DNA of 64,000 bases from an uncultured Prevotella sp. (GTDB lineage Bacteria; Bacteroidota; Bacteroidia; Bacteroidales; Bacteroidaceae). The stretch spans positions 1 to 64,000 of the forward strand of contig CAJOPE010000026.1 in the NCBI GenBank assembly GCA_905236815.1. Reading direction: 5' to 3'. Positions 2,486-8,864 of the stretch are shown here, piece after piece. Every line of letters begins with the position of its first letter. The first letter of the stretch is position 1. A model generated the notes under the pieces. The model did not search any database. It worked only from the letters and a program-made list of their open reading frames with translations, and was not told where the DNA came from. The position numbers were made by a program, and so were the translations under genes.

Positions 2486-3583
2486 ATGAGATTTCATTCA
2501 TCCATAAAAAAATATTCAAGACTTTGCATTCTTTTGGTAATGCTTTGTATGGGTGGCCGCATGACTGCTCAGGTGCAAGTTACCCAGAAGATTGATTCTG
2601 TTTCGATTCTTATCGGACAACAGACACGGCTTCTGCTCTCGGTGAGTTTACCAAAAGGATGGGTTGCAGAATTTCCTTCTTTTAAGGATTCTGTTATGAT
2701 TACTCCTGGTGTGGAAGTTATAGACCAGAATGATCTTGCAAAACAGGATATAGGTCATGGTATGCAGCGTCTTCAGCGCGTATATACCCTTACTTCTTTT
2801 GAGCAGGATCTCTATCGAATTCCTGCTCTCGACGTTAAAGTCAAGGATGAAAAATATCATGGTAATGAGTTGGCACTCAAAGTTATAACTGTTCCTGTAG
2901 ATACAATTCATCCCGATCAGTTCTATCCACAGAAACCGGTTCAGGATAATCCTTTCCAATCAAATGAATGGCTACCATTGTATTTTGTGAGCATTTTGAT
3001 GTTGCTTGTTATAGGAGTAGCTATATTCCTGATTGCTAGATTAAGAAGTAACAAGCCTATCCATATGACATTCAAGATGGTAAAGCGTATCCCTGCTCAT
3101 ACAAAGGCTTTGCGAGAGATTGAAGTTATCAAGCAGGAACATCCTGAAAACCAAGAAGGCCAAAAGATCTATTATACACGACTCACGGAAACAATACGTA
3201 AGTATATTGAGAGTCGTTTCGGATTCAGCGCTATGGAAATGACTAGTTCACAGATTATTGAGGAGCTAAGAGCCAAGGGCGATGAGAAGATGATAGATGA
3301 ATTGAAAGGACTCTTCCAAACCGCCGATTTGGTGAAGTTTGCCAAGTATGAAACCCTCATAAATGAGAATGATTATAATCTTGTGAATGCTGTAAAGTTC
3401 ATCGATGAAACTAAGACTGATGAAACAGAGATTGTGGAGCGTGTTGCCCCTAAGCTTTCAGAAGATGACAAGAAGCATAACAGTCAGCGATTGATTATGA
3501 AGGTATTGATTGCAGCTACTTCCTTAACAGCAGTTGGATTATTAGCTTGGATCATCTACCGTGTTTCGATGCTGACTTTCTAA
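2486..3583 (+). CDS. Bat-operon membrane protein, uncharacterised
   Basis: 365 aa. It has a signal peptide (hydrophobic residues about 12-27, cleavage after MTA), a beta-rich exported region of about 130 residues, a membrane segment near residues 165-185, a cytosolic part with a helix-rich segment (TETIRKYIESRFGFSAMEMTSSQIIEEL) and a second membrane segment near the C-terminus. The cytosolic segment recalls the corresponding part of BatD. It lies between DUF58 and batA. I do not recognise a named family with confidence (DUF4381-like is possible); a periplasmic/inner-membrane role in the Bat complex is inferred from position. Confidence 0.75.
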   Translation: MRFHSSIKKYSRLCILLVMLCMGGRMTAQVQVTQKIDSVSILIGQQTRLLLSVSLPKGWVAEFPSFKDSVMITPGVEVIDQNDLAKQDIGHGMQRLQRVYTLTSFEQDLYRIPALDVKVKDEKYHGNELALKVITVPVDTIHPDQFYPQKPVQDNPFQSNEWLPLYFVSILMLLVIGVAIFLIARLRSNKPIHMTFKMVKRIPAHTKALREIEVIKQEHPENQEGQKIYYTRLTETIRKYIESRFGFSAMEMTSSQIIEELRAKGDEKMIDELKGLFQTADLVKFAKYETLINENDYNLVNAVKFIDETKTDETEIVERVAPKLSEDDKKHNSQRLIMKVLIAATSLTAVGLLAWIIYRVSMLTF

Positions 3584-3594
3584 AGATTAAAAAA

Positions 3595-4596
3595 ATGGAA
3601 TTTGCAGATAAAGGATATTTTCTATTGCTATTATTGCTGATACCTTATATAGTATGGTATCTGCTTTATAGAAAGAAGAGTGAGCCAACTCTTCGCATGA
3701 GTGACACCCGTGCATATCAGTATGCTCCTAAGAGTATGCGTGTTCGTCTTATTCATCTTCCGATGATATTGCGATGCATTGCTTTCACACTTATTGTCAT
3801 AGTCATGGCTCGTCCTCAAACTAAGAATGACTACGATAATAAGACAGTAGAGGGTATTGACATTATGTTGGCAATGGACGTTTCAACCTCAATGCTTGCA
3901 GAAGACTTGAAACCTAATCGAATTGAGGCTGCAAAAGATGTAGCTACAGAATTTATTAGTGGAAGACCTAATGACAATATTGGCTTGACAATTTTTGCAG
4001 GTGATGCTTTCACTCAATGCCCAATGACTACAGATCATTCTAGTTTGATGAATCTTCTGGAGCATACAAGCACAGCAATGGCTGCAAGTGGCTATCTTGA
4101 GGGAGGTACTGCTATAGGTATGGGCCTTGCAAATGCCGTTTCACGTTTAAAAGACTCTAAGGCAAAGAGTAAGGTGATTATCCTTTTAACTGATGGAGCA
4201 AATAATGTTGGAGATATCTCTCCACTGACTGCTGCTGAAATTGCTAAGAGTTTTGGTATTCGTGTCTATACAATTGCAGTTGGTACGGATAAAAAGTTTG
4301 CACCATATCCAGTTCCTGTGGGTGGAGGTATTCAGTATATGAATCAACCTGTAGAATTGGATACAAGAACTTTGCAGGATATTGCCAGCAATACAGAAGG
4401 AAATTATTATAGAGCTACGAACACTAAGCAGTTGAGGATGATCTATCAAGACATCGATAAACTGGAGAAAACCAAGATGAACGTTCAGCATTTCTCAAAA
4501 AGATATGAGGCCTATCAGCCATTTGCAATTGCTGCGGTTCTCATTCTGTTCTTGGAAATTCTTCTGAGAATTACTTGGTTCAGACGTATTCCTTAA
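3595..4596 (+). CDS. batA: BatA, VWA-domain membrane protein
   Basis: 333 aa from the ATG at 3595; an upstream TTG would overlap the preceding gene and add residues that fit no membrane segment. The order is a hydrophobic N-terminus (LLLLLLIPYIVW), a second membrane helix near residues 60-75, a VWA domain with MIDAS sequence AMDVSTSML (DxSxS), a conserved LTDGANN segment, and a C-terminal membrane helix (FAIAAVLILFLEILL). This is the standard BatA/BatB topology with the VWA domain on one face of the membrane. Bat proteins were named for Bacteroides aerotolerance; the molecular role is still unclear. Confidence 0.9.
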   Translation: MEFADKGYFLLLLLLIPYIVWYLLYRKKSEPTLRMSDTRAYQYAPKSMRVRLIHLPMILRCIAFTLIVIVMARPQTKNDYDNKTVEGIDIMLAMDVSTSMLAEDLKPNRIEAAKDVATEFISGRPNDNIGLTIFAGDAFTQCPMTTDHSSLMNLLEHTSTAMAASGYLEGGTAIGMGLANAVSRLKDSKAKSKVIILLTDGANNVGDISPLTAAEIAKSFGIRVYTIAVGTDKKFAPYPVPVGGGIQYMNQPVELDTRTLQDIASNTEGNYYRATNTKQLRMIYQDIDKLEKTKMNVQHFSKRYEAYQPFAIAAVLILFLEILLRITWFRRIP

Positions 4597-4614: not shown

Positions 4615-6267
4615 ATGTTAAGATTTGAAGATCCAATATATTTATGGGCTTTGCTCATTGTCCCAATTCTCTTGCTTATTAGGTTTTTGGGATGGCGAAG
4701 CAGAAAGGCAAAGCTTAAGAAGTTTGGTGATCCTGAACTTTTAAAGGAATTGATGCCTGATGTCTCGAAGTATCGCCCAACCGTAAAGTTCTTTTTGGCA
4801 TTAACAGCTTTAGCCTTGCTCATTGTTGTTCTTGCTCGTCCACAGATGGGAAGCAAAATTTCAAATGAAAAGCGTGAAGGCATAGAAACGATTATTGCCG
4901 TGGATATTTCCAATTCCATGTATGCACAAGATGTGGCACCATCGAGAATCGATAAGGCCAAGATGCTGATAGAGGATTTGGTTGATAATTTTTCGAATGA
5001 CAAAGTTGGACTTGTTGTTTTTGCCGGTGAATCGTATATTCAATTGCCTATCACAAGTGATTATGTTTCAGCAAAGATGTTTCTTCATGATATTGACCCT
5101 TCGTTGATACAGACACAGGGAACCGATATTGCAGGAGCTATTAATCTGAGTATGAAGAGTTTTACTAAACAGCAGAATGTAGGTAAGGCGATTATTGTGA
5201 TAACTGATGGTGAAGACCATGAGGGTGGTGCTGAACAAGCTGCAGCTAATGCTCATAAACAGGGAGTTAACGTTTTCATTATGGGTATAGGTGATACCAA
5301 GGGCTCACCAATACCAATGGATGGTGAATATCTGAAAGATAATTCAGGTAATGTGGTAATGTCCCGCTTGAATGAGGATATGTGTAGAAAGATAGCTTCG
5401 GCTGGTAGCGGTAAGTATATTCACGTGGATAATACCAGTGAGGCTGAAGAAATCCTGAATGCTGATTTGGCTAAACTGCAGAAGGGAGATGCTTCCTCCG
5501 TTGTGTATAGTGAATATGCAGAAAAGTTTCAGACATTTGGTATCCTGGTGGTATTGCTACTCATAATTGAAGTATGCATCATGGAGGCCAAGAACAGCAG
5601 AATGAAGGATTTGCACATATTTAAGCGTGCTAGTTTGTTAATAGCACTATTTATGATGGTTGGTTTGGCGAATGCGCAATCTGATAGAGATTATATTCGT
5701 CAGGGAAATCGAAATTATAATGCCGAAAATTTTGCTCAGGCTGAAACCTCGTATAGAAAGGCTCTCTCTAAGAATCCAGGAAATACTCAGGCTATGTATA
5801 ATCTTGGAATGTCTCTTCTTGGTCAGCAAAAGGTACAAGAAGCTGCAAAATATCTGGAGCAAGCAGGTAAAGAGGAACCAAATAAATTGCGAAAGGCTAA
5901 GAGTTATCATAATCTGGGATGGATGTGCCAGAAGATGAGAGACTATAATAATGCTATCAATTATTATAAGATGGCTCTTCGCAACAATCCTTCGGATGAG
6001 CAAACTCGTTACAACTTAGCCCTCTGTCAGCATCAGAAGAAGAATCAGCGTGATGATAAGAAGGATAAGAAAGACGACAAGAAAAAGAAGAAAAAGAAAG
6101 AAGAAAAGGAACAGGAGCAGAATCAAAATCCTGACAAGAATAAAATGAGCAAGGATAATGCCGAGCAACTTCTTAATGCTGCTGTTCAGAACGAGAAAAA
6201 TGCTAAGCAGAAAATTCGCAAACATATGGCTGCTCCTAGAAGCAGAAACTTGTCGAAAAATTGGTAA
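4615..6267 (+). CDS. BatB-BatC fusion (VWA + TPR)
   Basis: 550 aa, longer than a normal BatB of about 330-340 aa. Residues 1-329 are BatB: two N-terminal membrane helices, a VWA domain with MIDAS at D97-I-S99-N-S101, LTDG-like ITDGEDHEGG, and a C-terminal helix FGILVVLLLIIEVCI. Residue 330 is a Met that begins a typical BatC: signal-peptide-like MKDLHIFKRASLLIALFMM...ANAQ, TPR repeats (about 350-470), a Lys/Glu-rich linker, and a C-terminus ending in SKNW as BatC proteins do. The frame is open across the junction, with no stop. The internal ATG at 5602 could also give separate BatC. The next gene starts nine bases downstream. Confidence 0.85.
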   Translation: MLRFEDPIYLWALLIVPILLLIRFLGWRSRKAKLKKFGDPELLKELMPDVSKYRPTVKFFLALTALALLIVVLARPQMGSKISNEKREGIETIIAVDISNSMYAQDVAPSRIDKAKMLIEDLVDNFSNDKVGLVVFAGESYIQLPITSDYVSAKMFLHDIDPSLIQTQGTDIAGAINLSMKSFTKQQNVGKAIIVITDGEDHEGGAEQAAANAHKQGVNVFIMGIGDTKGSPIPMDGEYLKDNSGNVVMSRLNEDMCRKIASAGSGKYIHVDNTSEAEEILNADLAKLQKGDASSVVYSEYAEKFQTFGILVVLLLIIEVCIMEAKNSRMKDLHIFKRASLLIALFMMVGLANAQSDRDYIRQGNRNYNAENFAQAETSYRKALSKNPGNTQAMYNLGMSLLGQQKVQEAAKYLEQAGKEEPNKLRKAKSYHNLGWMCQKMRDYNNAINYYKMALRNNPSDEQTRYNLALCQHQKKNQRDDKKDKKDDKKKKKKKEEKEQEQNQNPDKNKMSKDNAEQLLNAAVQNEKNAKQKIRKHMAAPRSRNLSKNW

Positions 6268-6275
6268 TAATTAAT

Positions 6276-8864
6276 ATGACGCAATATATCAAAAAACTCA
6301 TAACGATGATGTTTGGGCTCATGATAGTTTCTACTATCTCTTTTGCTCAGCATATCTCGGTTTCTGCACCTTCACAGGTTTTGGCAGGCGAGAATTTTCG
6401 CCTGGTTTATACTGTGAATACGCAGAATGTTGAGGATTTCCGTGCGGGTAATGTTCCTTCTGGATTGGAAGTAATTGCGGGGCCATATACATCTCAGCAA
6501 TCAAGCTATCAGATGGTAAATGGACACACAAGTAGTTCTTCCTCCATTACCTTCACTTATACTCTCTATGCTGTAAAAAATGGTACATACACAATTTCTG
6601 CTGCTCATGCAAATGTGAATGGCAAGCGCGTGAACTCTGCTTCTGTAAAAGTTAGAGTCATGGGAAGTGCTCCAAAGAATCAAAATGGTCCTAGAATGAA
6701 CCAGCAAGGCTATGGAGATGAAGATACGCAGAGGTCGGGAGCTGTGATTTCTGGAAATGATCTTTTTGTAAAGGTTACAGCGAATAAAAAATGTGTTTAC
6801 GAACAGGAGCCAATTCTACTCACTTATAAGCTGTATAGACAAGTGGTAGATATTACTTCTATCTCGGGTAATATGCCTGATTTAAAAGGCTTTCATACAC
6901 AGCAAATCAAGTTACCTCAGCAGAAACCTCAGATAGAGAAATTAAATGGTAAAAATTATATTTGCCAAACTATTAGTCAGTATTTGATATTCCCTCAAAT
7001 GACTGGAAAACAAAAAATTCCTAGTTTTTCCTTTGAGGGAACTATACTTCAGAAACATAATGTAGATCCTTTGGAGGCTTTCTTTAATGGTGGTTCCAGT
7101 TATTCTGAAATTCATAAGAACATAGTAGCTCCAGGAATAGATATTCAAGTTTTGCCTCTTCCAACTAAGCCTTCGAATTTCTCGGGTGGAGTAGGTCGAT
7201 TCAATATATCTTCTTCTATTGACAAGAAATCGGTTAAGGCAGGTGATCCAATCAGCATTCGATTGGTAATCGGAGGTAATGGCAATATGAAGTTATTGAA
7301 ACAACCTCAAATCAAGGTACCTAAGGGTTGGAGTAAGTATGACCCTAAGATCACTGACAAGACTCGTCTTACAACCAATGGTGTTGAGGGTAATGTGCTT
7401 TATGATTTTGTTGTTGTACCTGACAAGGAAGGCAGTTATACATTGCCTCCTCTGGAATTTGTGTATTTCGACACAAATGCTAAAAGTTATAAAACTCTGA
7501 AAACGCAATCCTTCAAGGTGAATGTAACTAAGGGTGATGGTAAGGGTGTTTCCAGTGAGGACTTTAGCGATCCGCGTGACCAGGATATTCATCCAATAAT
7601 GAAAGGAAAAGCTAGCTTGAGAAAGGCAAGTGATTTCTTCTTTGGAAGTACTGGTTATGTGTTGTTGCTAATGTTGTTGCTAGTAACTTTTATTGCTTTG
7701 CTTATCATTTTCCGCAAGCGTGCTATTGCAAATGCAGATATTGTTGGAAAAAAGGCAAATCGTGCTCACAAGGTGGCTGCAAAGAAACTCCGCACTGCAC
7801 ATGAACTGATGCTGGCCGGAAAACACGGTGAGTTCTATGATGAGGTTCTTAGAGCCTTATGGGGCTATGTGGGAGATAAATTAAATATGCCTGTTGAGAG
7901 TTTGAATCGTGAAAATATTCAGGACAATCTTAAGGCTCATCAGGTAGATGATGCTACTATTCTGAAATTTGTTTCAGCTCTTGATGAATGTGAGTATGAA
8001 CGCTATGCACCTGGTGATATCGCTGGAAACATGAATAAGACTTTTGAAAGTGCGATGACAGGAATTATGGAGATAGAAGATGCAATAACTCAGTCAAAGA
8101 AGGCTAAGAAGAATGCTGCAAAGGTGATGCTTATGTTGCTTTTCCTTATGGTAGGTGCAAGCGCATCGGCAGTAACTGTTTCCAAGCAAAAGGCAGACAG
8201 AGAATACCTTCAAGGTGAATATCAGCAAGCCATCAACGATTATGAATTAGTGCTTAGAAATGGTGAGTCGGCTGAGGTTTATTATAATTTGGGAAATGCC
8301 TATTATAAGAACGATGATCTTACTAAGGCGATTCTCAACTATGAGCGTGCTCATCTCTTGGATCCAGGAAATGAGGATATTAATTTTAACTTGGAATTTG
8401 CACGGGCAAAAACCATAGATAAGATAGTTCCTGTAGAAGATTTCTTCTTGGTGGAATGGTATAATGCCATGGTTAATTTTACAAGTGTTGATGGATGGGC
8501 GGTTATCGCGGTCTTGTCGTTGGTTCTTGCTATTGCCTTTACGTTGGCATATCTCTTTGGCAGTAGGTTAATTTTAAGAAAGGTTGGATTTTATGGTGGC
8601 ATTGCTACTATTCTTCTCTTTTTTGTTGCTAATATATTCGCCTCTCAACAGAAAGAGGATTTAGAACATCGAACAGGTGCAATAGTAATATCCTCATCAG
8701 CTACCATTATGAAGACTCCTTCCATGAATGGAACTCAAGATTTTGTTCTTCATGAGGGTACCCGTGTGGATATTATGGATAAGACTATACACAACTGGCG
8801 TGAAATTAAAGTGGGAGATGGTAGAACAGGATGGATTCTCACAAAACAACTAGAAGAAATATAA
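6276..8864 (+). CDS. BatD-BatE fusion
   Basis: 862 aa from the ATG at 6276; a TTG at 6261 overlaps the previous stop and is unlikely. Residues 1-617 match BatD (DUF11-like/oxygen-tolerance family): signal peptide ending SFAQ, beta-sandwich repeats, a membrane helix near 470-490 (YVLLLMLLLVTFIALLIIF) and a cytosolic helical region. A Met at 618 starts a signal-peptide-like segment (MLMLLFLMVGASASA) followed by TPRs (YYNLGNAYYKNDDLTKAILNYERA), two membrane helices and a C-terminal SH3-like domain, the BatE layout. No stop separates the halves. The internal ATG at 8127 might permit separate BatE synthesis. The PAP2 gene begins immediately after the stop. Confidence 0.83.
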   Translation: MTQYIKKLITMMFGLMIVSTISFAQHISVSAPSQVLAGENFRLVYTVNTQNVEDFRAGNVPSGLEVIAGPYTSQQSSYQMVNGHTSSSSSITFTYTLYAVKNGTYTISAAHANVNGKRVNSASVKVRVMGSAPKNQNGPRMNQQGYGDEDTQRSGAVISGNDLFVKVTANKKCVYEQEPILLTYKLYRQVVDITSISGNMPDLKGFHTQQIKLPQQKPQIEKLNGKNYICQTISQYLIFPQMTGKQKIPSFSFEGTILQKHNVDPLEAFFNGGSSYSEIHKNIVAPGIDIQVLPLPTKPSNFSGGVGRFNISSSIDKKSVKAGDPISIRLVIGGNGNMKLLKQPQIKVPKGWSKYDPKITDKTRLTTNGVEGNVLYDFVVVPDKEGSYTLPPLEFVYFDTNAKSYKTLKTQSFKVNVTKGDGKGVSSEDFSDPRDQDIHPIMKGKASLRKASDFFFGSTGYVLLLMLLLVTFIALLIIFRKRAIANADIVGKKANRAHKVAAKKLRTAHELMLAGKHGEFYDEVLRALWGYVGDKLNMPVESLNRENIQDNLKAHQVDDATILKFVSALDECEYERYAPGDIAGNMNKTFESAMTGIMEIEDAITQSKKAKKNAAKVMLMLLFLMVGASASAVTVSKQKADREYLQGEYQQAINDYELVLRNGESAEVYYNLGNAYYKNDDLTKAILNYERAHLLDPGNEDINFNLEFARAKTIDKIVPVEDFFLVEWYNAMVNFTSVDGWAVIAVLSLVLAIAFTLAYLFGSRLILRKVGFYGGIATILLFFVANIFASQQKEDLEHRTGAIVISSSATIMKTPSMNGTQDFVLHEGTRVDIMDKTIHNWREIKVGDGRTGWILTKQLEEI

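Follow-up and report, generated by a model that had tools for sequence, protein, structure and literature searches.

The batA-E operon of Bacteroides fragilis comprises five separate genes (cited in PMC3557215). The same gene order and domains recur in the window considered here, a stretch of 64,000 nucleotides from an uncultured Prevotella sp.; however, whereas BatB and BatC, and likewise BatD and BatE, are separate in Bacteroides, both pairs are fused in the window. The first of these fusions raises the question of what becomes of a signal peptide that is enclosed within a membrane protein: is it kept as an anchor, is it cut, or is BatC also produced from a start of its own? The relevant features are as follows.

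592-1587, + strand: MoxR-type AAA ATPase (Pfam)
1589-2461, + strand: DUF58 protein (Pfam)
2486-3583, + strand: exported membrane protein (ORF, Pfam)
3595-4596, + strand: BatA (Pfam)
4615-5628, + strand: BatB part, with two N-terminal transmembrane (TM) helices, VWA domain, TM3 and basic tail (Pfam, Foldseek, AF2, tail alignment)
about 5527-5586, + strand: TM3 of BatB, followed at 5587-5628 by the conserved basic tail, predicted to be cytoplasmic (AF2 helices, BatB C-termini of separate genes)
5602-5604, + strand: ATG codon of M330, earlier proposed as the BatC start, inside the BatB tail (column composition)
5629-5676, + strand: retained BatC signal peptide and putative internal export signal, residues 339-354, ending ANA before Q (h+c length, AF2 helix)
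5674-5679, + strand: predicted signal peptidase I site A354/Q355, ANA/Q (conservation in 78 fused proteins)
5677-6264, + strand: mature BatC part, with TPR repeats at about 5680-6054, a Lys/Glu-rich low-complexity linker and a conserved C-terminal helix (TPR_2 and others, NCBIfam, AF2)
6276-8864, + strand: BatD-BatE fusion, the next gene, of the same design (BatD and TPR domains in one ORF)
8112-8171, + strand: internal signal-peptide-like segment of BatD-BatE, NAAKVMLMLLFLMVGASASA followed by V, ending ASASA/V and so departing from the Q-rule

The BatB-BatC fusion is real. The ORF at 4615-6267 (+ strand) is a single uninterrupted frame of 550 codons (550 amino acids) that runs from BatB into the TPRs of BatC, and BatA N-terminal, VWA and TPR domains are all recognised within it by Pfam. 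The in-frame fusion claimed in the first-pass annotation is therefore upheld by the open frame, by the domains and by about 100 other fused loci. The first half has the attributes of BatB, that is, PF07584 together with PF13519 (VWA_2), a double TM N-terminus and the MoxR-DUF58-BatA operon order; its MIDAS residues (D97-x-S99-x-S101, T170 and D198) are invariant, and the VWA half shares 55-56% identity with the solved BatB structures 3ibs and 4jdu (Foldseek with the AF2 model), the solved B. thetaiotaomicron BatB being at 56%. The second half has a signal peptide, TPRs and a charged low-complexity tail, lies directly 3' of BatB and aligns with separate BatC proteins; it also matches NCBIfam TPR_BatC_Lepto with an E value of 4e-15, a hit that falls short of that model's own Leptospira-only cut-off. 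An AF2 model built from the 78 fused proteins (mean pLDDT 76) places helices in the BatB part at residues 7-37, 54-73 and 305-324, and at a pTM of 0.45 it gives no confident arrangement of VWA relative to TPR.

The position of the join differs from that first proposed, in which the signal peptide began at residue 330. Residues from about 325 to 338 (KNSRMKDLHIFKR) correspond in alignment to the conserved tail of BatB, NPLLKNxxLFKR, which precedes the stop codon in separate-gene species. In those species a BatB tail such as NPLLKNVRLFKKK ends at a stop, with the BatC start placed after it or in another frame; the window junction reads NSRMKDLHIFKR (BatB tail) and then ASLLIALFMMVGLANA, followed by QSDRDYIRQGN. 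Since the sequence up to about residue 338 is BatB tail, the join lies there and not at 330, and the BatC signal sequence is indeed retained, at residues 339-354 or thereabouts. The AF2 helix at 339-354 stops at the predicted cut site, model confidence being low in this region.

The fused and separate arrangements are both common in Prevotella, and have changed repeatedly, as was found when the survey suggested in the first-pass annotation was carried out. Loci were drawn from genus, family and order surveys together with named genomes, all Bacteroidales. Among 281 usable loci, 124 are fused, 52 have both genes in the same frame but divided by a stop, 104 are separate and one is undetermined (100, 49 and 89 of the first three classes after a 97% redundancy filter), counts that are not frequencies because the sampling favours loci resembling the fused query. 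A single ancestral fusion is rejected: on a genus tree of 151 members, from which the junction columns were left out, the fused and unfused states require 18 changes, of which well-supported branches demand no fewer than 13, and for the order set the corresponding figures are 28 and 16. Fusions are present in other genera and families too. The same-frame state would be one stop-codon change away from fusion, which may provide an easy route. The window itself sits in a clade of nine rows with 99% support, of which six are separate, one has a same-frame stop and two are fused; as this clade is mostly unfused, the window's fusion probably arose recently, and separately from that of the large fused clade of the rumen.

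The account that fits best is that the ORF probably encodes a membrane polyprotein of two parts, which signal peptidase I separates between A354 and Q355. According to positive-inside reasoning, BatB would insert so that the VWA domain faces the periplasm and the tail stays on the cytoplasmic side, and the former BatC signal peptide would act as an internal export signal that re-enters the membrane and carries the TPR domain to the periplasm. Signal peptidase I would cut at A354/Q355, leaving BatB with one more membrane hairpin at its C-terminus and setting BatC free in the periplasm, the N-terminal Gln of BatC being expected to become pyroglutamate. BatB and BatC would in this way be made in equal amounts.

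The evidence that carries this reading is the conservation of the site. In the alignment of fused proteins A354 is present in 76 of 78 and Q355 in 77 of 78, with entropies of 0.20 and 0.10 bits where the neighbours have 2-3.4 bits, which puts the pair among the most conserved positions of the entire fused protein. Most of the surrounding signal peptide, at 2-3.5 bits, is free to vary, and A, S, V or T predominate at position -3. The join has the features of a Q-rule signal peptidase I substrate (basic n-region, short h-region, A-x-A and Q at +1), and its h+c region has a median of 16 residues, as in the separate genes. Automatic site calling, with a home-made heuristic rather than SignalP, finds Q at +1 in 86% of fused loci (n = 100), 84% of those with a same-frame stop (n = 49) and 87% of separate ones (n = 89), and of the 14 fused exceptions checked by eye only two (L041, A/K; L226, A/E) are without a small residue followed by Q. 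The A/Q pair is also kept in fusions from other genera and families (L217, L234, L235, L239, L254, L263-L265, L274 and L280), and the Q-rule is followed by the operon neighbours at 2486-3583 (MTA/Q) and 6276-8864 (SFA/Q) in the window. With a near-invariant signal peptidase site at the join, processing of the long protein into the usual BatB and BatC is probable; of the three outcomes envisaged in the first-pass annotation, predicted cleavage to release a periplasmic TPR protein is the best supported, by the near-invariant A/Q and the short, signal-peptide-like h-region.

In Bacteroidetes, Gln occupies the position after the signal peptidase I site in a mean of 71% of cases by species, and this Gln is cyclised to pyroglutamate, as detected also in Prevotella intermedia, in data that do not extend to inner-membrane proteins (Bochtler et al., PMC5837995). 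When the Gln is replaced, the proteins that were tested become less abundant (Szczesniak et al., PMC10653852). The site in these substrates is the same A-x-A/Q as at the BatB-BatC join; however, the Q-rule was described for N-terminal signal peptides, whereas the site in the window is internal to a polytopic membrane protein (PMC5837995, PMC10653852). A signal peptidase I gene is present in the genome. No glutaminyl cyclase candidate is found in this 92% complete assembly (G000), in which the two weak matches to Peptidase_M28 (PF04389) were rejected, reading as other peptidases. A strong Peptidase_M28 match of the glutaminyl-cyclase type occurs in 38 of 40 congeners, and its absence here probably reflects the incompleteness of the assembly; it would otherwise be a surprising loss.

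A considerably less probable reading is that the signal sequence stays uncut, and that a fourth TM helix holds the TPR domain to BatB in a permanent fusion protein. The topology would permit the membrane anchor that was also proposed at first, with TM3 and the signal segment forming a hairpin around a basic cytoplasmic loop, but this leaves the conserved Q unexplained: an invariant A/Q and a preference at -3 stand out amid otherwise free sequence, and the hydrophobic segment has the same short length as its counterpart in separate, cleavable BatC. We know of no use for Gln at this position in an uncut anchor, so its upkeep after many separate fusions is the main argument for cutting.

The anchor reading draws some strength from the neighbouring BatD-BatE fusion, which has the same design without the Q, so that joins of this kind may in some cases escape cutting. 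Of the 126 loci whose BatD-BatE junction could be read, 96 have the two genes fused, and the fusion is common in the genus. At its signal-like segment the +1 position is mostly taken by V, I or some other residue, and rarely by Q, in fused BatE and in most separate Prevotella BatE alike; the A can persist at this join without Q, and BatE carries TM helices of its own. BatD-BatE is fused in 48 of 56 loci in which BatB-BatC is fused and in 59 of 76 in which it is separate, raw counts that suggest no strong link between the two fusions in evolution. It is possible, though we hold this only tentatively, that in many Bacteroidales the Bat operon has time and again given rise to natural bacterial polyproteins, each linking an exported TPR partner to a membrane protein through the partner's own signal peptide, and that a single operon holds both kinds of join, BatB-BatC being cut by signal peptidase I and BatD-BatE, with no conserved Q, staying joined.

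It is improbable that BatC is additionally made from an internal start at ATG 5602 (M330), which in the window would supply a complete n-region and h-region, giving MKDLHIFKRASLLIALFMMVGLANA followed by Q. This codon lies inside the BatB tail, in a column where only five of 77 fused relatives have Met and 45 have Leu, and any ATG upstream of the h-region is found in only 35 of 100 fused loci; such a start would account for the conserved A/Q only if every species had one. A conserved internal BatC start is rejected on these counts, and the separate BatC that had been suggested from ATG 5602 is unsupported as a general mechanism. That a sequencing or assembly error masks a stop or frameshift between two separate genes, the hazard raised in the first-pass annotation, is most improbable and is rejected on the reading frames and the fused relatives, for although the draft assembly is in 166 contigs and the clade of the window is mostly unfused, both halves align in one frame (up to residue 338 and from 339 onward), about 100 independent loci have the same join, and the other two frames contain stops to either side of the join (frame 0, HI-stop-AC-stop; frame 2, E-stop...VLVC-stop-stop) and nowhere across the junction a BatC-like start with a full signal peptide, so that a missed indel would yield no two sensible genes.

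Fusion of this gene pair is itself already known, since batB and batC form one gene in Leptospira biflexa, and other bat fusions occur in Borrelia burgdorferi, Spirochaeta thermophila and Francisella tularensis Schu S4 (PMC3557215). The likeness to the Leptospira fusion is drawn from its published description, and no mention of an internal signal peptide or of cleavage was found in the parts of that account consulted (PMC3557215). Leptospira biflexa is a spirochaete, whereas the Q-rule is specific to Bacteroidetes. Literature searches on the Prevotella BatB-BatC fusion, on bacterial signal-peptidase polyproteins and on fbcH returned nothing direct; as far as they went, three features are new: that the fusion recurs in Bacteroidales, that its join keeps a conserved Q-rule site, and that it is paired with a BatD-BatE fusion.

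A membrane protein and an exported protein are likewise joined through an internal signal peptide, and cut, in the cytochrome b/c1 precursor FbcH of Bradyrhizobium japonicum. FbcH involves unrelated proteins and an enzyme complex, and is, as far as is known to us, a single case, whereas the BatB-BatC fusion is recurrent. To our knowledge, little is understood of what the Bat system does, and a repeatedly evolved fusion with a near-invariant cut site suggests a joint action of BatB and BatC in equal amounts, with the need for both to end as separate proteins. The join would make a simple case in which the action of signal peptidase I within a polytopic bacterial membrane protein can be tested, and the pairs of fused and unfused close relatives constitute a natural experiment. 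Gene callers and signal-peptide predictors will label the long ORF as a single protein.

Two further observations concern the junctions of other loci. In one (L241, genus g27) a long and unusual insert (AFAQSYSKDDKVQSAQDILGKDHSNAIPQ...) follows the signal peptide of the fused BatB frame. In some rumen Prevotella a dispersed palindromic repeat (AGAGGTGAG.../...CTCTTACCTCTTAC) supplies the coding sequence of the junction signal peptide, at 2509-2631 of L100, and in L026 at 7009-7128 and at the BatD-BatE junction. There are 33 matches to the repeat in genome G102, 23 in G118 and seven in G030, with none in a backwards control or in the window's genome, and its RNA hairpins are strong (z -4.3 and -5.6). 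The bat contig of G102 (C141) carries two copies, the first in the BatB-BatC join and the second approximately 2.6 kb downstream, where the BatD-BatE join is expected. Where the repeat encodes the junction signal peptide, the A/Q site survives.
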